From a virus, in the IMG/VR virus record IMGVR_UViG_3300009164_000371, positions 1-23,167 of that record: a stretch of DNA of 23,167 bases. One strand, given 5' to 3'. The notes beneath the pieces were generated by a model. That model worked only from the letters and a program-made list of their open reading frames with translations. It had not been told where the DNA came from and did no database searches. Made by a program: the position numbers and the translations under genes. Numbering within the stretch: the first letter of the stretch is position 1; each line of letters opens with the position of its first letter. Of the stretch, positions 3,544 to 13,801 are shown one piece after another.

Positions 3544-3944
3544 TATCCGAGAACACTAAAATAATGATTCAAAACGAATTCTTCAACAAACTAACTAAAA
3601 ATCATCCTTTTATTACCATCTGCTCTTATGCAGGACAGGATTATGTTGGTATTGTACAAAACCGCGATGAGGTAGTTACAACTATCTATGACTACGGAGC
3701 AATTATAGATCAGGTCCTTAGGGAAAAGTTCTTAGAATTAGGTGATACTTGGTGGTGGGAAAGTAATCGTTTAGTGCCCATCAATATGTTCTTAAAAGAA
3801 GAATGGATCATGTTCAAACCCTATCTTAGAACGTTCAATAACAAAAGTCTCACTGTAGTTCATGGCCCGATATGTAGCATATTAGAACTGGCCAAAAGAA
3901 AATCAAAAAGAAAATCAATTACTCTCGTTAAGAGAATGTCCTAA
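3534..3944 (+). CDS. Conserved-looking phage protein, only plus-strand gene (136 aa)
   Basis: I do not assign a function. The protein is 136 residues with a mixed core (FITICSYAGQDYVGIVQ, then DTWWWESNRLVPINMF and WIMFKPYLRTF) and a very basic tail (KRKSKRKSITLVKR) that could bind nucleic acid. The aromatic-rich core and basic tail look like a phage family I have seen in T4-like genomes, but I cannot name it. It is the only gene read rightward; it is divergent from the BppU-like gene (56 bases apart) and its last 30 bases overlap the end of the DnaE-like gene on the other strand. The start may instead be the ATG at 3564, which follows a late-type box and a GAGAA. Confidence 0.75.
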   Translation: MINISENTKIMIQNEFFNKLTKNHPFITICSYAGQDYVGIVQNRDEVVTTIYDYGAIIDQVLREKFLELGDTWWWESNRLVPINMFLKEEWIMFKPYLRTFNNKSLTVVHGPICSILELAKRKSKRKSITLVKRMS

Positions 3945-4508
3945 TTCTTCTAATAAGTTCATATGAACAACTACCAAGTGTGCGTAGGCAATAGCATGAC
4001 TTTTCTTAAAGCTATACCCATCAATATTCTTCTCCCACACAGTCTCAGCAACTTCTTTCCAAGGTAGACCAATCAAATGCTTCTTAGCAGGTCGAATGAT
4101 TGCTAACATCATAGCAAGTCTTGGTATGCTATTAATAGGTTCTAACATCTTTTGCATACTATAATAATGATTGCTTAAGTGAATCAATTGTTCTATAAAT
4201 GCTTTGTCGTTTAGTTTATCCCAATTAGGTTCACGCATCAATTCAATTAAGTGTTGCTCATTGCGTACTTTGTCATAGACATGCACGTTCAAAAAGTCTA
4301 GTTTGACATACCCTCGTTGTTCTGCCTCAGTGTAATCTATATTAGCCATGTCGAGTAATGCATCGTATGGAACTTCTGTAACATAAATGCCAGTTGCATG
4401 TTTACGAATAGGATTCGCTCTACGCATTGCCGCAGGAATATGAGAGATATGTTGTAAAATATTATCTCTGTTACCAAAGTCAATATCAATGTCTGATTGA
4501 AACTTCAT
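3915..4508 (-). CDS. Condensed DnaE (DNA polymerase III alpha)-like protein (197 aa)
   Basis: This short protein lines up, in order, with pieces of the bacterial replicase palm and fingers. Residues 6-11 DIDIDF followed by RDNILQHI match the DnaE motif PDFDVDF..RDQVIEHV (catalytic Asp401 and Asp403 in E. coli). KHATG at 36-40 matches KHAGG. YVKLDFLNV at 68-75 matches LVKFDFLGL, with Asp71 at the place of catalytic Asp555. IIRPA at 137-141 matches the FRPGP element, and GYSFKKSHAIAYA at 164-176 matches GYGFNKSHSAAYA. The PHP domain, most of the thumb, the beta-binding and C-terminal domains of DnaE (about 1160 residues) are absent and the linkers are much shorter. It may be a catalytically altered polymerase core, a nucleotide-binding relic or a structural mimic. 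It overlaps the SGNH gene by 23 bases and has no ribosome binding site of its own, so it is probably coupled. Confidence 0.75.
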   Translation of the reverse strand: MKFQSDIDIDFGNRDNILQHISHIPAAMRRANPIRKHATGIYVTEVPYDALLDMANIDYTEAEQRGYVKLDFLNVHVYDKVRNEQHLIELMREPNWDKLNDKAFIEQLIHLSNHYYSMQKMLEPINSIPRLAMMLAIIRPAKKHLIGLPWKEVAETVWEKNIDGYSFKKSHAIAYAHLVVVHMNLLEELGHSLNESN

Positions 4509-5283
4509 ATATTTTGGCTATCTCTTTGGCTAATCCATCATGCACGGCTTCTGCATAATGCCCACCTGGACAAAATGCATTAACATCAGTTGATAATTTA
4601 GTGCATATATCAAACATATTAAAATCAAAAGTAAGATTAAGGTAACTTTCTATATTTTTTAATTCATCGTGCTTACCCACTGGTTCAAAATATGGCATCG
4701 ATTTAATTAATAGATAAGGTATATCATTGGTCTTAAAAAAATCAATCAGATGAATTAAATTAAATAACCAATTTTTATACATTGAGGTTAGAGTTTCGTT
4801 TTCTATCCTTATCTTAGCATATTCGTATGCAATAGTTGATAAATTATCTAGCCAACTAGGCATAATTGAGATGGTATGATCATTTATAGATATATCAAAC
4901 CTATCTATTGCGGTAACTTGTATTATTGCTAAATGTATTGGTTCACTGTTACTTTTTAAATTTATAATATCAGTTATAGTACTATTACAAATGCTATCCA
5001 TTGATGCCCCGGCCTTACCACCATTCATAACCGGAATATTTAATAATTTTTCTAACTTTGCAGGCCATGCTCTTTTCATTTCCTCATTTTGTATAAATGC
5101 ATTTTCAGCAATAGTATTCACCTTCTTACGAATAGCAAAATGATGTTTCTTTACAAGAGCATCTCTTAATTCTATATTAAATATATCCTTAGGTAATCTA
5201 AAACCCGGATGTACATCTTTATGAAATATGTGGTCATACAATTCTGTTCCTTGAGTGAAACTATCTCCGTTACAATATATCAT
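4486..5283 (-). CDS. SGNH/GDSL-type hydrolase-like protein (265 aa)
   Basis: The N-terminus has the block I motif GDSFT with the expected nucleophile Ser8. A Gly-rich block II (NGGKAGAS, 87-94), a block III-like strand (IIQVTAIDR, 120-128) and a final GGHYAEAVHDGLA (240-252) with His242 follow in the SGNH order. Family members are esterases, lipases or sugar-O-deacetylases. The residue three before the His is Pro, not the usual Asp, and block III lacks a clear Asn, so catalysis is uncertain. There is no signal peptide. It starts at ATG 5283, overlapping the exonuclease stop as ATGA. In phages such proteins may act on envelope or capsule sugars or be virion parts; here it sits among DNA enzymes, which does not settle the role. 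Confidence 0.75.
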   Translation of the reverse strand: MIYCNGDSFTQGTELYDHIFHKDVHPGFRLPKDIFNIELRDALVKKHHFAIRKKVNTIAENAFIQNEEMKRAWPAKLEKLLNIPVMNGGKAGASMDSICNSTITDIINLKSNSEPIHLAIIQVTAIDRFDISINDHTISIMPSWLDNLSTIAYEYAKIRIENETLTSMYKNWLFNLIHLIDFFKTNDIPYLLIKSMPYFEPVGKHDELKNIESYLNLTFDFNMFDICTKLSTDVNAFCPGGHYAEAVHDGLAKEIAKIYEVSIRH

Positions 5284-5840
5284 CTGGGTGCCATCAATCC
5301 TGCCTTCATTAATTTCATATATGCTCGTTGCACAACAATAGCTTGATGTTCGGCGTCTTCTACTGCTTTGTGTGTGGTAATATGTTTATCATCTTTCAAA
5401 CTTACTCCAGCAACTTCGTATAATGTTCTTGTATCTCTAACTGACCAGAAAGGCCAGGGAATAGGATTTGGCTTATCGCTTGTTTGTCTCCATGCATCTT
5501 CCATAACAATACAATCGAAACCTGCACCATTGCTCCACACTGCACGACGGTTCCAACAAAACTTATAAAGCGTCTCCATGCATTCTGCAAACGGAACACG
5601 TCCCCAATCACCCATAGCTTCTTCTTGTGCAGCCTCGCTTTGTGTTCCCCACCAACGTAATGTGTCTTCATTGATACTACGATTGTATATTTCAGTTTGA
5701 TCTTCAATTGTAGGACGTAGTTCTAATCGTTCTGCTATCCCAGAACCTTTGGGATCAAATCTAACTGCACCAATTGTAAGTATAACACAATTAGGTGTTG
5801 TATTCAAACTTTCAATATCGATCATTATGTCATTTGCCAT
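5280..5840 (-). CDS. dexA: DEDDh 3'-5' exonuclease, DexA / Rv2179c-like
   Basis: It is predicted to degrade single-stranded DNA or RNA from the 3' end. All DEDDh residues are visible: Asp8 and Glu10 in IMIDIES, Asp109 in NGAGFDC, and His157 with Asp162 in THKAVEDAEHQ. With NEDTLRWWGTQSEAAQ and WSVRDTRTLYE it is closer to the Rv2179c-like/T4 DexA group than to DnaQ proofreaders. It has 186 residues against 227 for T4 DexA. Starting at ATG 5840, it overlaps the endonuclease VII gene by 11 bases and shares ATGA with the SGNH gene. It may trim DNA ends or recycle host nucleic acid; whether the substrate is DNA or RNA cannot be told from the sequence. Confidence 0.85.
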   Translation of the reverse strand: MANDIMIDIESLNTTPNCVILTIGAVRFDPKGSGIAERLELRPTIEDQTEIYNRSINEDTLRWWGTQSEAAQEEAMGDWGRVPFAECMETLYKFCWNRRAVWSNGAGFDCIVMEDAWRQTSDKPNPIPWPFWSVRDTRTLYEVAGVSLKDDKHITTHKAVEDAEHQAIVVQRAYMKLMKAGLMAPR

Positions 5841-9047: not shown

Positions 9048-9609
9048 ATTGTGCTATATCTTTATCAGAGATGATTGTAGATAATATTTCAATATCTTCT
9101 ATCTTCAAATGAGGGAATTCATTTGCTAGATATACCTTTTTCTTTTGCACTGATACAAATACACCAGCCAACTCTTGTCTATCGGACTGGGATGCTTTGG
9201 GGTAAATTTTACCAAAGTAATCAGTAACTTCTTTTTCTTTTGGGGATTCTTTTAATTGTGCTACTTTACCTGATAGATGGGGTATCCATTGATGAAATTG
9301 TTTACCTAATCCAGGGCTTGCCGCACATAACATCAGCCATTGTAGTTTAGGATGTTTTTGTACATACTCATTAAACAAATATTTGTTTGCAGTATGATCG
9401 GTGTTCATCAAATAATAAGAACTTAATCCTGCATTAGATTTGATAGCACTCATCCAATGAGTCATCATATACGGTACAAACTTCTTTTGTTGTTCTTCCG
9501 TTAATCTATCATAATAGCCATAGTCTTTTTTGTCCATAGCGGCTAATGCATCAAATAAATCAAAGTCTACATTTTGAAATTTTTCGTCAACTGGAGTTTT
9601 AGTTGCCAT
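9022..9609 (-). CDS. 62: Probable clamp-loader small subunit, T4 gp62-like
   Basis: In T4, gp62 joins four gp44 subunits to load the sliding clamp gp45. The protein has 195 residues (T4 gp62 187). The pattern FDALAAMDKKDYGYYD, then FVPYMMTHWMSAIKS, then YLFNEYVQKHPKLQWL and GKQFHQWIP resembles the order in marine T4-like gp62 proteins (F.vNR.LS, hP.LQY.fl, krFsKW.k), and the next part holds a short helix pair (VTDYFGKIYPKAS). This is weak, pattern-level similarity read by eye. It starts at ATG 9609, which shares one base with the stop before it. The gp44 partner is not in the window. Confidence 0.6.
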   Translation of the reverse strand: MATKTPVDEKFQNVDFDLFDALAAMDKKDYGYYDRLTEEQQKKFVPYMMTHWMSAIKSNAGLSSYYLMNTDHTANKYLFNEYVQKHPKLQWLMLCAASPGLGKQFHQWIPHLSGKVAQLKESPKEKEVTDYFGKIYPKASQSDRQELAGVFVSVQKKKVYLANEFPHLKIEDIEILSTIISDKDIAQYEKDHGND

Positions 9610-10109
9610 TAAAAAGCCTGATCGTAATCTATAATTTCACAATTTCTACTAACTTCTTTTACAAAGTAAACACATCGGGGTTTATGTCCATCATCGATCG
9701 GTATACATAGAAATTGCCCGTTCTTCAATCGAGGTGCATACCAAGTAACATCATGGTAGATATCTACAATTTCAATATCTTGGAAACTAGGTCTAAATGC
9801 ACTTAATGGATTGAATTCAAATGCCTTGAATCCTCTGTCATTGATACTTGTTAACGGTAATGTTTCTAAATCACCCATATCAGGTTCGCCTATTAGTATC
9901 TGCCAATCTACCGGCATCTTAACTGTTCTATCACCTATACGTAGTACAAGTGCCGGGGCATTGAAACTTTCTAAAAAGATTAATGGTATGTAATGGTAGT
10001 CTACGTTTTGCGGGTTGCTATTGTCTAAAATAGCAAATCTCAAATCATCAATTTCATCCGGTAATGTTTCAAGGTTATAAAATTCGTTGTCTAAAGTTAA
10101 AATTCTCAT
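9609..10109 (-). CDS. Hypothetical phage protein (166 aa)
   Basis: I do not recognise this protein. It is acidic, mostly beta by eye, with no membrane segment. A strand-turn-strand core (APALVLRIGDRTVKMPVDWQILIGEPD) is followed by AFEFNPLSAFRPSFQDIEIVDIY and a C-terminal part with CIPIDDGHKPRCVYFVKEV. It is the first gene of the long leftward run and has its own consensus promoter just upstream. Its ATG at 10109 lies 7 bases after the -10 box with no ribosome binding site, so its mRNA is probably leaderless. The strong, UvsW-overlapping promoter suggests early, high expression. Being first in the run before the gp62-like gene, it may have a replication role, but this is only position. Confidence 0.7.
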   Translation of the reverse strand: MRILTLDNEFYNLETLPDEIDDLRFAILDNSNPQNVDYHYIPLIFLESFNAPALVLRIGDRTVKMPVDWQILIGEPDMGDLETLPLTSINDRGFKAFEFNPLSAFRPSFQDIEIVDIYHDVTWYAPRLKNGQFLCIPIDDGHKPRCVYFVKEVSRNCEIIDYDQAF

Positions 10110-10116
10110 ATGATAT

Positions 10117-10145
10117 AGTATAACACAATTTTACTTATATGTCAA
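10117..10145 (-). promoter_or_regulatory. Consensus sigma70-type promoter, leaderless type
   Basis: TTGACA (10140-10145) and TATACT (10117-10122) stand 17 bases apart on the minus strand, with TGT before the -10. The -35 box overlaps the last codons of uvsW. The next ATG is 7 bases after the -10, at the expected mRNA start. It would drive the long run from the 166-residue gene to the DnaE-like gene. Confidence 0.85.
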
Positions 10146-11588
10146 CTTCTCCATATCAAAAGGGTAATTTGCTTCTTTATAAAAAGCCTTGCGTTGGGTT
10201 AAATGTCTTTTGGCAAATTTGCAGGAACTTGTGAGGTCCCATATTTGGACGAAATCTTTGTCATCCGCCTTTCTAATACCCCTGCCAATACTCTGGATAA
10301 CCCTAACAAAACTCTTGCCAGGTTCAATAAGAACAAGGTTAAATATTCGTGGTATGTTGATACCAACCGCTGCCACACCGTAGGTTGCGACAATGATTTT
10401 GTTTGTACTAGTGGCAATTTCATCATATTCCTCTTTTCTTTCAGTCATGTTTGTTCCACCCGAAACAAATACTGCGTCGGGTAATCTACTAATCAATTCT
10501 TTACCTGCATTTACTCTATCAACCAATACAAGCGTGTTCCCTGACTCCTTGATATTTAGTATCAATTGAGCCATAGTGTCTAATCTTTTAGCATCCTCTA
10601 AGAGGTGCTTTAGTTCACTTTGATAATTACTGAACTCTACACTATCCTGCAACTGCACAATGTTGACATGACATTGTGCTAGTACTCCACGTTCCTGCAA
10701 TTCACTTGCACTTAGTTTATTGATAACATTACCAAGACTGACATAGATTGCTTGTGCCTCAAAGATTGCTTTAGGTATCGTCCCAGTCAATCCCCAACGA
10801 ATCGGGATATTACTCATCACCCCAGTCAATAACTCTTTTAGTGCATCAGCCTTGGCCATGTGAACCTCGTCAACCATGACACATACTACACCCTCTAAGA
10901 ACTCACCGATCGGAACTTCGGCTTCATCTGCTTTTGTTTTCTTAAGCATATTGTTAAGACTTTGCCATGTACAGATTGTATGTGTCTTGCCAAACTCTTT
11001 TCTATCACCAAAGTATACACCAACATCCAGTCCTAGATTAATGTAATCTGCTTCGGTTTGTACGACAAGACTTTTGTTAGGAACAATAACAATACTACGA
11101 CCATAATTTTGTACACTGTAACTTAGTGCGGCAGTGATTAATGTCTTACCTGCACCTGTTGCTACTTCTTGCAGTGCTTGCGGGTTAGCTAGAAAGTCAT
11201 TGATAATCTTTACTTGATAGTCACGAAACATAACAGGTTCACCCTCTCTAGGATGACCTTTAGGCCAAGTATATTGACTGAAACTATCTTCTTTGATTGG
11301 GTTGAAAGCGAATGTTTTATTATATTCTCGTAAATCTTCTAATTCGATTTCATAACCTGCCATATCAAGTATGGGAAGAATCTCCGGTAGTAAATTAACA
11401 TAACTACTGCCGCCTAAACTAAAGAAACTGATCTTACCGTTCCAACGACCTAGCCGGACACTTGGCAAATATCTCGCACCAGGCTTCTCGTATTCGAACT
11501 TTTTCATCAATGCTTTGCGTTCGGCTAGTTCAAGCCCTTCGATTTTTACATTGACTTCATCTTTAATTATTAGTTTACATTGTTTCAT
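10131..11588 (-). CDS. uvsW: UvsW-like SF2 DNA helicase
   Basis: T4 UvsW unwinds and anneals branched DNA (D-loops, R-loops, stalled forks) and switches replication from origin to recombination mode. The protein has 485 residues (T4 503). The N-terminal 90 residues match the small DNA-binding domain (KFEYEKPGARYLPSVRLGRWNG is the family's 'f....pgaryspa.r.g.WdG' pattern). The motor has motif I ATGAGKT (143-149), II DEVH (240-243), III LTGT (267-270) and motif VI QSIGRGIRK in the C-terminal RecA domain. It begins at ATG 11588 and shares ATGA with the HARP-like gene, so the two are made together. Motif II is DEVH rather than T4's own variant. Confidence 0.93.
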   Translation of the reverse strand: MKQCKLIIKDEVNVKIEGLELAERKALMKKFEYEKPGARYLPSVRLGRWNGKISFFSLGGSSYVNLLPEILPILDMAGYEIELEDLREYNKTFAFNPIKEDSFSQYTWPKGHPREGEPVMFRDYQVKIINDFLANPQALQEVATGAGKTLITAALSYSVQNYGRSIVIVPNKSLVVQTEADYINLGLDVGVYFGDRKEFGKTHTICTWQSLNNMLKKTKADEAEVPIGEFLEGVVCVMVDEVHMAKADALKELLTGVMSNIPIRWGLTGTIPKAIFEAQAIYVSLGNVINKLSASELQERGVLAQCHVNIVQLQDSVEFSNYQSELKHLLEDAKRLDTMAQLILNIKESGNTLVLVDRVNAGKELISRLPDAVFVSGGTNMTERKEEYDEIATSTNKIIVATYGVAAVGINIPRIFNLVLIEPGKSFVRVIQSIGRGIRKADDKDFVQIWDLTSSCKFAKRHLTQRKAFYKEANYPFDMEKLTYK

Positions 11589-12598
11589 TTGATCTCTATC
11601 GGTCTACTATTTACTAGGCTAATTATTTTTCCTAAGTATTTTGTTCCATCTTCTGTATTGGACATACCTAAATTAATTTTAACTGGCATTTCGTATTTTC
11701 TCAAATCAGTAATAGTAAAGTCCCTTACTCGGTCGTTCTTTATTAAAGAATGTTTAATTTTATTTGCCTTAAGATGGTTAGCTACATTATACATATATTC
11801 TTTATTTACGCCGCTCCGTTCATTCAATATTACAAAGTCGGTACCTATACTCCGTAATGATTCGATAAGGCTTGACATATCGTGTACTTCTAAGTGTGGA
11901 TTTATTTCCTTAGCAAATGAATCAACATCAATATCAATGTTTATACCCAATCTAACTAATTTTGCAATGTTTGCCGGTTCAGCATTCAACTCAACATCCA
12001 TTAACATTTCATTCAATATAGTATTACATGCAACTACATAGTAATTCCCTTTGCGTTCTATCAACGTAGGTGTCCAGTACTTCGCATCCTCATATGGTTT
12101 AATTTCAACTAGTATTTTTTTAATGATAGGACAAAAATTTACAGTACTATAATTTTCTTTTGTTATTCTAATAAGTTCTTTTAATCTAAATTCTGCGTAA
12201 GGTGTACTCCAAAATTTTTCATCACGGTCCCACTTCATATAGTCAAGAGCCTTTAAATTTTTAACAAATTCTTTTTTGAAGGGACTATGAATGATGATAT
12301 CTTTATCTTCTACAATAGAAATATATGCTTGCGTAAACTGAGTACTACTCTGTATCAAGGGTAGTGTCCACGGTAGCTGAATTAATTCTTCGCTGTTCAA
12401 TTCTTTTTTTAAGAATTGTCGATGATACCTTGATGTAATTTTATTAAGTAGGTCTGCTTGATTAGTTGTTACCGGATTTTTAACTGCAAAATTCATTTGA
12501 ACCAAATTGTTTAAGAATTTTTTATCGTAGGTTCCTAGGCTAATGTGTTTTAGCATAAAATCTACTAACTGTTCTTTTGTATTGGGTTTCACTTGCAT
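11585..12598 (-). CDS. HARP-domain-like protein coupled to UvsW (337 aa)
   Basis: Residues about 90-148 look like a HARP domain, the annealing-helicase accessory domain of SMARCAL1: a strand, then 'FKKEFVKNLKALDYMKWDRDEKFW..P', matching the HARP pattern of an aliphatic/helix start followed by W/yD...k.W..p (Trp123, Asp124, Trp130). The first 60 residues are helical (NQADLLNKITSRYHRQ). The region after 220 alternates strands and helices and might be a decayed helicase lobe, but no motor motif is seen. No Walker motif is present, so it is not an ATPase. It overlaps UvsW by 4 bases as ATGA. I infer a DNA-binding partner of UvsW. Its ATG at 12598 is 6 bases after a TATAAT box. Confidence 0.7.
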   Translation of the reverse strand: MQVKPNTKEQLVDFMLKHISLGTYDKKFLNNLVQMNFAVKNPVTTNQADLLNKITSRYHRQFLKKELNSEELIQLPWTLPLIQSSTQFTQAYISIVEDKDIIIHSPFKKEFVKNLKALDYMKWDRDEKFWSTPYAEFRLKELIRITKENYSTVNFCPIIKKILVEIKPYEDAKYWTPTLIERKGNYYVVACNTILNEMLMDVELNAEPANIAKLVRLGINIDIDVDSFAKEINPHLEVHDMSSLIESLRSIGTDFVILNERSGVNKEYMYNVANHLKANKIKHSLIKNDRVRDFTITDLRKYEMPVKINLGMSNTEDGTKYLGKIISLVNSRPIEIK

Positions 12599-12604
12599 TC
12601 TGTT

Positions 12605-12633
12605 ATTATACTACTTATGATTAGGTAAAGCAA
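12605..12633 (-). promoter_or_regulatory. Sigma70-type promoter of the HARP-UvsW pair
   Basis: TTGCTT (12628-12633) and TATAAT (12605-12610) are 17 bases apart on the minus strand. The ATG of the HARP-like gene begins 6 bases after the -10, and no ribosome binding site lies between, so a leaderless mRNA is likely. Confidence 0.7.
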
Positions 12634-12642
12634 ACATAGTGG

Positions 12643-12671
12643 AAAAAAGAGGGACATGTAAGTCCCTCTTT
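12643..12671 (-). terminator. Rho-independent terminator after the AAA+ gene
   Basis: On the minus strand the stem AAAGAGGGAC / GTCCCTCTTT (10 bp, 6-base loop) is followed by a T run (six T from 12648 down to 12643, partly pairing with the A's of the stem). It lies about 20 bases after the AAA+ stop codon, the expected place. Confidence 0.85.
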
Positions 12672-12672
12672 A

Positions 12673-12700
12673 CTGCTTAACGAAAGGGTAAATTAAGCAG
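12673..12700. repeat. 8-bp inverted repeat overlapping the AAA+ stop codon
   Basis: CTGCTTAA at 12673-12680 is repeated inverted as TTAAGCAG at 12693-12700 with a 12-base loop. The right arm contains the AAA+ stop codon. Together with the terminator next to it this could be an mRNA 3'-end stabiliser, or chance; no further evidence. Confidence 0.4.
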
Positions 12701-13742
12701 ATTTCATACAAGTACTAACAGTCAACGCTTTCCAATTTGTTGGACTGATCTTTACTAAGTCGGCTATTTTCAAGCACATACGCATACTCAACTCACGCAA
12801 ACGACTTTGATTTTCAAACATGAATTCGATAATCATCTCGCCTTCACCGTTTTCAAAGTCATAGTCTTTGAACAAACCACCGTCAGCATCACGATGCACC
12901 TGTTTGATACGCAACATTTTGTCACGTTCACTATCAATAGTCAGGTCAAGAAAGTGACAACGACTTTGCAATGCTTCCAAGTGATCCTGCAACTTTTTGC
13001 TTTTCACATTTTCAAACTTCAAGTTTGTAATGAAAATAGCAGTACCATTAAAGTCAAAACTATCAGGGATACCTTCACGGCGCAACAGAGTAGAATCACT
13101 ATTCCAGCAAATGCGTCTACGCTTACCTGAATCCAATGCAGCCTTCAAAATGTTCAATGACAAGTCATCGGCAAACACGCTATCACAATCGTCAAACACT
13201 AACACGTTTTTACGATCCGAGTACTTGTACAATTGTGCATACAAGCCTAGTGCAGTCATCGCACCTTTGATAACTTCATAACGAACACGCTTACCTGCAA
13301 TCTTATCAAAAAGACTTGCTTTTTCAAGTTGCGTTTCAACACCATATGACTTACCAACTCCGGGAGGACCTGACACAATCATAGCACGGATATCACCGTT
13401 GATAGCCGCTTTTGACATTTCATCAAGTACTGCAAAACGGGTTGCAATACGATTCATTGCTTCCTCGTCAGTCTCTTTAGGCATGACTACTTTAGTCTCT
13501 TTAGTTTTGAATTCAATTGCTGTACTCACTTCAACCTCTCCATTAATAAATTCAATGTTTTCAATACCATTTACCTTAACTTTAACATTTTCAATGTTAA
13601 CGCTAGGGAAATGACCCTCGTTCTTTACTGTCACAAACCCACCTTTTGCACCTGTCTGATAGCCTTTGACAAGTTTAAAAGTTTTGTTCACAACTGGAAT
13701 ATTGCGATACTCACCGTACTTTACACAAATCACTGATGACAT
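12693..13742 (-). CDS. AAA+ ATPase of unknown role (349 aa)
   Basis: The AAA+ core is clear: Walker A SGPPGVGKS (124-132), Walker B VLVFDDCD (180-187), a sensor-1 strand AIFITN (235-240) and a possible arginine finger in LQSRCHF (258-264). The ATPase lies after an N-terminal 60-residue beta region (KYGEYRNIPVVNKTFKLVKGY) that looks like a small SH3/KOW-like domain and may bind DNA or a partner. The C-terminal part is helical. It is not a T4 gp44-type clamp loader by sequence (no SRC in the usual clamp-loader context seen clearly, no zinc finger) and may be a motor remodelling the phage replisome or host target; role not known. ATG 13742 was chosen (AAAGGGG at 8 bases); a TTG at 13757 is less likely. 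It has a perfect consensus promoter. Confidence 0.85.
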   Translation of the reverse strand: MSSVICVKYGEYRNIPVVNKTFKLVKGYQTGAKGGFVTVKNEGHFPSVNIENVKVKVNGIENIEFINGEVEVSTAIEFKTKETKVVMPKETDEEAMNRIATRFAVLDEMSKAAINGDIRAMIVSGPPGVGKSYGVETQLEKASLFDKIAGKRVRYEVIKGAMTALGLYAQLYKYSDRKNVLVFDDCDSVFADDLSLNILKAALDSGKRRRICWNSDSTLLRREGIPDSFDFNGTAIFITNLKFENVKSKKLQDHLEALQSRCHFLDLTIDSERDKMLRIKQVHRDADGGLFKDYDFENGEGEMIIEFMFENQSRLRELSMRMCLKIADLVKISPTNWKALTVSTCMKSA

Positions 13743-13750
13743 AGAAACCC

Positions 13751-13801
13751 CTTTCAATCAATCAATACAAGTATTATATAGCCAAATTGATTTATTGTCA
13801 A
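13751..13801. repeat. Promoter repeat, copy 1
   Basis: This 51-base stretch matches 14008-14058 at 44 of 51 positions. It holds the promoter and leader of the AAA+ gene, including a near-palindrome AATACAAGTATT (13764-13775) over the predicted mRNA start. The second copy lies before the 66-residue gene. It suggests duplication of a regulatory unit. Confidence 0.8.
13773..13801 (-). promoter_or_regulatory. Perfect consensus sigma70 promoter of the AAA+ gene
   Basis: On the minus strand TTGACA (13796-13801), 17 bases, TATAAT (13773-13778). The -35 overlaps the stop codon of the preceding small gene. The leader is about 24 bases with TTGATTGATTGA then AAAGGGG. Confidence 0.9.

Follow-up and report, generated by a model that had tools for sequence, protein, structure and literature searches.

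A motorless HARP-like protein encoded beside the UvsW helicase in uncultured phages, a candidate accessory for fork recognition

HARP-domain proteins and the uvsW locus

HARP domains fused to other SNF2 motors confer annealing-helicase activity (PMC4035279). SMARCAL1 has two such domains, whereas T4 UvsW has been described as carrying just one, N-terminally (PMC4666394). On its own, T4 UvsW shows similar affinity for different fork substrates, with little substrate preference (PMC3778716). Phages also encode motorless proteins with HARP domains, the stand-alone HepA-related proteins of Bacillus phage vB_BcoS-136 and its relatives; in Bacillus phages PJN02 and FADO, uvsW is not among the annotated neighbours listed for the HepA-related gene. 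We analyzed a viral DNA stretch of 23,167 nucleotides, referred to here as the window (IMG/VR record IMGVR_UViG_3300009164_000371), in which a HARP-like protein lacking a motor is encoded directly upstream of uvsW. The features of this locus, all on the minus strand, are as follows.

10131..11588, minus strand: UvsW helicase gene, 485 aa (Pfam, PHROG and T4 UvsW homology)
11585..11588, minus strand: ATGA stop/start overlap of the HARP-like gene and uvsW (sequence)
11585..12598, minus strand: gene of the HARP-like, candidate accessory protein, 337 aa, predicted first gene of the uvsW unit (ORF)
11588..12130, minus strand: C-terminal part, residues 157-337 (AF2, Rossmann/RecA-like neighbours, hhalign)
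12131..12367, minus strand: HARP-like domain, residues 78-156 (hhalign, AF2 of the domain alone, fold neighbours)
12371..12598, minus strand: N-terminal helical domain, residues about 1-76 (AF2 model and alignment of 48 relatives)
12605..12633, minus strand: TTGCTT-N17-TATAAT, a predicted promoter of the sigma70 type with 6 nt between its end and the ATG
12644..12671, minus strand: terminator-like hairpin and T-run after the upstream AAA gene (sequence and fold)
12693..13757, minus strand: upstream AAA ATPase gene (PHROG 1250, 6e-85), a neighbour in a separate unit

Compared to the HARP domain of SMARCAL1 (PF07443, PDB 4o66), the domain in the window has the same motif spacing of a hydrophobic strand, a Y/F-N/K helix and a W/Y-x6-W/Y hairpin, but the protein falls below the Pfam cut-off (gathering score, 25 bits), contains no SNF2 motor in its chain, and flanks the domain with helical and Rossmann-like domains. 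The Bacillus-phage proteins differ from it by having one or two HARP motifs and other flanking domains, and the phage SNF2 helicases of the Corynebacterium phage P1201 type (PHROG 62) by the fusion of their HARP-like region to an intact motor. In Sinorhizobium phage Phosso, gp418 is homologous over the helical and HARP-like part (E = 6.5e-8) and lies two genes upstream of uvsW; unlike the window protein, it has no C-terminal domain, and a 500-aa ORF stands between gp418 and uvsW. By eye this ORF, gp419 (the region with gp418 and gp419 is L085:3747-5880), looks like an SNF2 helicase devoid of ATP-binding motifs; it is not assigned as a dead SNF2 here, since family databases and the PDB returned no match in support.

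HARP homology and predicted structure

In Pfam, NCBIfam and PHROGs no convincing family was obtained for the HARP-like protein; a DUF6953 match (8.4e-4, below the cut-off) and scattered single-member family matches among the relatives were taken as chance. A tblastn search of an isolated-phage collection returned no significant relative (two matches at E = 6 only), and neither the protein nor its profile matched the PDB by sequence. Iterative search of related loci, which had been collected with E-values that are not on a genome-wide scale, gave a family of 56 members; except for Phosso gp418, all relatives come from metagenomic viral contigs. The 181-aa and 334-aa ORFs of phage Atu_ph07 were rejected as members for want of sequence support, as was the equation of an Atu_ph07 ORF with the BFVD match A0A2L0UZF7, its sole basis being length. 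The gene is under purifying selection, with dN/dS of 0.07-0.34 between relatives, and evolves faster than UvsW.

PF07443 itself gave no match in the window at E<=10 and matched 2 of 48 relatives, with a best E of 0.051. Profile-profile comparison was then carried out against a HARP reference set of four sequences, namely three domains of Bacillus-phage HepA-related proteins and SMARCAL1 4o66. The profile of residues 78-156 from 48 relatives matched this set with a probability of 93.4% (P = 2.6e-7), and the full-length family profile did so at P = 8.5e-6. The real score of 36.5 compares with at most 21.7 for 200 column-shuffled controls and at most 14.4 for 16 unrelated families of the same contigs. 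When the HARP HMM was run over 3,863 ORFs, members of the family took ranks first to ninth. In an independent locus set, the top matches of the family profile were the N-terminal regions of phage SNF2 helicases of the P1201 type, just before the motor (hhalign P = 8.8e-5). Altogether, the profile comparisons point to homology of residues 78-156 to the HARP domain. The preliminary description had placed a HARP-like region at residues 85-150 of a motorless protein, and both elements are borne out, with residues 86-150 making up a HARP-like domain; the profile check it proposed might have ended in no HARP match, and this was not the outcome.

Alignment of 48 relatives revealed invariant D25, T44, Q47, L50 and Q61 in the N-terminal helical domain, and P106 and W123 in the HARP-like domain. 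At position 130, all but one of the 48 (47/48) have W or Y, so that W123 and W/Y130 reproduce the W-x6-W/Y spacing of HARP. The helicase motifs DExH and VI are absent from all 48 aligned members, and family searches with the window protein and its relatives gave no helicase match. Because these motifs are missing, the protein departs from SMARCAL1-type enzymes, in which HARP is fused to an active SNF2/SF2 motor.

AlphaFold2 modeled the whole protein with a mean pLDDT of 89.7 and a pTM of 0.61, the latter making the relative placement of domains less certain, and the HARP-like domain alone with a pLDDT of 89.0. The domain is predicted to fold as beta-beta-alpha-beta-beta-alpha, and the C-terminal part as a small mixed region followed by a Rossmann-like domain (about 236-337). 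By VIA-align, the HARP-like domain may fall in the same fold class as the XPB damage-recognition domain (DRD; 5tnu, Z 6.3; 2fwr, Z 5.8) and the N-terminal domain of T4 UvsW (2oca residues 1-82, Z 5.3), although these Z values are middling; MutS-beta and MotA are also neighbours. All Z values of the domain are <=6.7, below 8, and eIF1-like folds score equally. SMARCAL1 4o66 was weakly matched by Foldseek (TM 0.50 of target); it is missing from the domain-only VIA list, which does not by itself exclude a match. The predicted HARP/DRD fold therefore supports the sequence result and is no proof alone. With the full-length model, the matches in the VIA list were taken up by the C-terminal Rossmann domain and headed by periplasmic binding proteins, and hence no specific family was assigned from it.

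Pairing with uvsW and predicted expression

The ATGA overlap of the HARP-like gene with uvsW, noted in the preliminary description, is read directly in the sequence. Among 55 related loci, a count that includes L002 and L003, the two genes overlap by 4 nt in 42 and by 14 nt in 7 (49/55 in total); in five of the other six the gene is 1.6 kb from uvsW, and one has no resolved spacing. Since overlaps between neighbours are common in the window, the ATGA alone is weak evidence of pairing, and more weight lies in the adjacency, which is conserved in dozens of contigs. The HARP-like gene was found upstream of uvsW in 53 of the 80 viral contigs whose UvsW is nearest to that of the window, and 20 of the remaining contigs extend far enough upstream to show that it is missing there. 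Conversely, in all 25 loci found from a relative of the HARP-like protein itself, uvsW was directly next, five of these contigs having already been found via uvsW. The pairing is real and old. Its carriers are many uncultured phages, freshwater and marine by an inferred habitat rather than by sample records.

The UvsW tree implies three changes in presence or absence of the partner, one of them the loss of the gene from a seven-member clade (support 1.0) that branches within the carriers. Searches of the whole records of two members of this clade (263 and 171 kb) yielded no copy elsewhere. The existence of a UvsW clade lacking the partner indicates that the HARP-like gene is accessory and dispensable.

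In one lineage, marine by inferred habitat, the two genes are parted by a TonB-dependent-receptor-like gene of approximately 1.6 kb; in every contig long enough to show it, uvsW lies directly beyond this insert.

L240:4625-6214, L051:2402-3979, L071:2058-3698 and sister contigs L241-L254: TonB-receptor-like insert (Pfam Plug, 8.6e-9 in L240 and 5.3e-10 in L051)

A receptor-like outer-membrane protein on a phage could alter host uptake or superinfection.

On the minus strand of the window, the genes are ordered SSB, UvsX, a small ORF, UvsY, an ORF of unknown function, the PHROG 1250 AAA ATPase, the 337-aa protein, UvsW, and more replication genes. The same AAA ATPase lies upstream of the uvsW unit in most related contigs, with or without the HARP-like gene. 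Elsewhere on this strand (3915-5840), short exonuclease-like (PHROG 255) and DNA-polymerase-like (PHROG 11778) ORFs lie near each other, which suggests a DNA polymerase split into several ORFs.

The terminator-like hairpin after the AAA gene and the predicted promoter that follows it would make the HARP-like gene and uvsW one unit. From this arrangement we predict a leaderless, or nearly leaderless, mRNA starting with the HARP-like gene, on which translation of uvsW would be coupled via the ATGA. A generic promoter scan did not list this promoter because its -35 matches 3 of 6 positions. A T-run is found in most related intergenic regions upstream of the HARP-like gene. TATAAT-like hexamers (5 of 6 or better) stand 5-6 nt before the first-choice ATG in 33 of 56 family loci, which are not independent. 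If other in-frame starts close by are admitted, with a distance of 4-8 nt, the count rises to 52 of 56, a figure inflated by this choice of starts. A perfect TATAAT at 5-6 nt occurs at 1 of 564 minus-strand ATGs in the window. In contigs without the HARP-like gene, uvsW often bears such a -10 close to its own start. A second sigma70-like, predicted promoter close to an ATG, TTGACA-N17-TATACT (region 10109-10145, minus strand), precedes the gene at 9609-10109 and likewise predicts a leaderless mRNA. In both of these predicted promoters the -10 ends 6-7 nt before the ATG, and that of the HARP-like gene is conserved across the family.

Possible roles of the HARP-like protein

The UvsW of the window matched Pfam ResIII (1.5e-17), Helicase_C (4.3e-9) and PHROG 16, DNA helicase (1.4e-72), and aligned with T4 UvsW (2oca) at E = 1e-30, residues 26-475 against 24-476. 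Its motor motifs are invariant, and UvsW_N gave a weak match to residues 9-81 (E 0.0097). By homology, it is a complete T4-UvsW-like helicase with a motor and most of its own N-terminal HARP-like recognition domain; in profile comparison, this domain and the HARP-like domain of the neighbouring protein have no sequence similarity. These matches bear on the idea, raised in the preliminary description, of a split annealing-helicase pair. The idea is partly supported: the motorless HARP-like protein and its exceptionally stable pairing with uvsW stand, while a motor lacking HARP is not supported. Nor is a two-protein form of a single enzyme, given that UvsW keeps most of its own N-terminal domain and the partner is absent in a nested UvsW clade. 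As UvsW has its own HARP, the pair resembles a second HARP added in trans more than a split of one enzyme. We therefore consider it very unlikely that the two proteins are obligate halves of a SMARCAL1-like enzyme, with the HARP protein supplying an activity that UvsW lacks; a HARP domain in trans with overlap and gene order kept would fit, but the HARP-like domain retained by UvsW, also described for T4 (PMC4666394), and its persistence without the partner in nested clades argue otherwise. Such an obligate enzyme is less likely than an accessory that recognizes junctions.

Alternatively, the HARP-like protein may be co-expressed with UvsW and not touch it, as an independent junction-binding or host-interaction protein that acts, for example, with SSB, with UvsX/UvsY or on host defence. 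The compact operon, in which most neighbours overlap, several by 4 nt, and the lineage in which the TonB-receptor gene parts it from uvsW favour this reading and count against an accessory of UvsW; the association, however, survives across dozens of contigs, and we hold independence to be unlikely. The C-terminal domain raises another alternative, as it is possibly a degenerate RecA2, like the second motor domain of SNF2 helicases. In phage SNF2 helicases, the HARP region was weakly matched by residues 96-145 (P = 0.0016) and the RecA2 region, in colinear order, by residues 233-289 (P = 0.0026). The Rossmann-like domain gave a weak colinear hhalign match to the RecA2 region of SNF2 helicases (P = 0.0027); the real score was 30.6, and none of 120 shuffles scored higher than 23.2. 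Since one unrelated decoy family scored as high against the SNF2 profile (32.3), this likeness is only suggestive. That the protein descends from a HARP-SNF2-type helicase by loss of the first RecA domain and the active site is doubtful, and so, to the same degree, is its present service in a structural or regulatory capacity, as a subunit modulating UvsW, perhaps by inhibition or gating. Besides the colinear matches, such an origin agrees with BFVD matches, about 300 columns long, to phage SF2 helicases of 500-650 aa, with the absence of DExH and motif VI from the aligned members, and with the separate 500-aa ORF after the HARP-like gene in Phosso. Apart from the decoy, it is opposed by the UvsW motor, which gave no profile match to the C-terminal domain, by the many Rossmann proteins that score higher in structure comparison, and by the lack of family or PDB support for gp419 as a helicase. 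It is unlikely that a large phage group has retained the protein as a motor-dead HARP-SNF2 remnant (HARP plus degenerate RecA2), which would act in trans as a second HARP and regulate UvsW, and would be expressed from a conserved leaderless promoter to form a two-protein fork-remodelling complex.

Tentatively, and at slightly less than even odds, we favour as the most likely reading a motorless accessory of UvsW that recognizes DNA structure and targets or stabilizes the helicase at forks. This reading draws on the controlled HARP profile match and the fold neighbours among SF2 fork- and lesion-recognition domains, on the family profile's top matches preceding the motor of phage SNF2 helicases, on gene order and overlap, the promoter and terminator layout of one unit and purifying selection, and on the surrounding genes for SSB, UvsX, UvsY and replication. 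Two published points also favour it: the annealing-helicase activity that HARP fusion confers on other SNF2 motors (PMC4035279), and the low substrate preference of T4 UvsW alone (PMC3778716). The monomeric action of T4 UvsW (PMC3778716) and the occurrence of partner-less UvsW in three tree groups count against it, the latter implying that the helicase works without the HARP-like protein. As an accessory, the protein would share one mRNA, probably leaderless, with UvsW, with coupled translation of uvsW, and its HARP/DRD-type domain would bind branched DNA or ss/dsDNA junctions. Through a presumed contact, it would help to bring UvsW to stalled forks or recombination junctions or to keep it there, providing in trans the second HARP that SMARCAL1 has in cis, and may stimulate fork regression or annealing. 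Whether an SF2 motor is able to anneal DNA and reverse forks depends on its HARP domains, and a widespread motorless phage HARP tied to UvsW offers a natural test of whether fork-recognition modules can act in trans.
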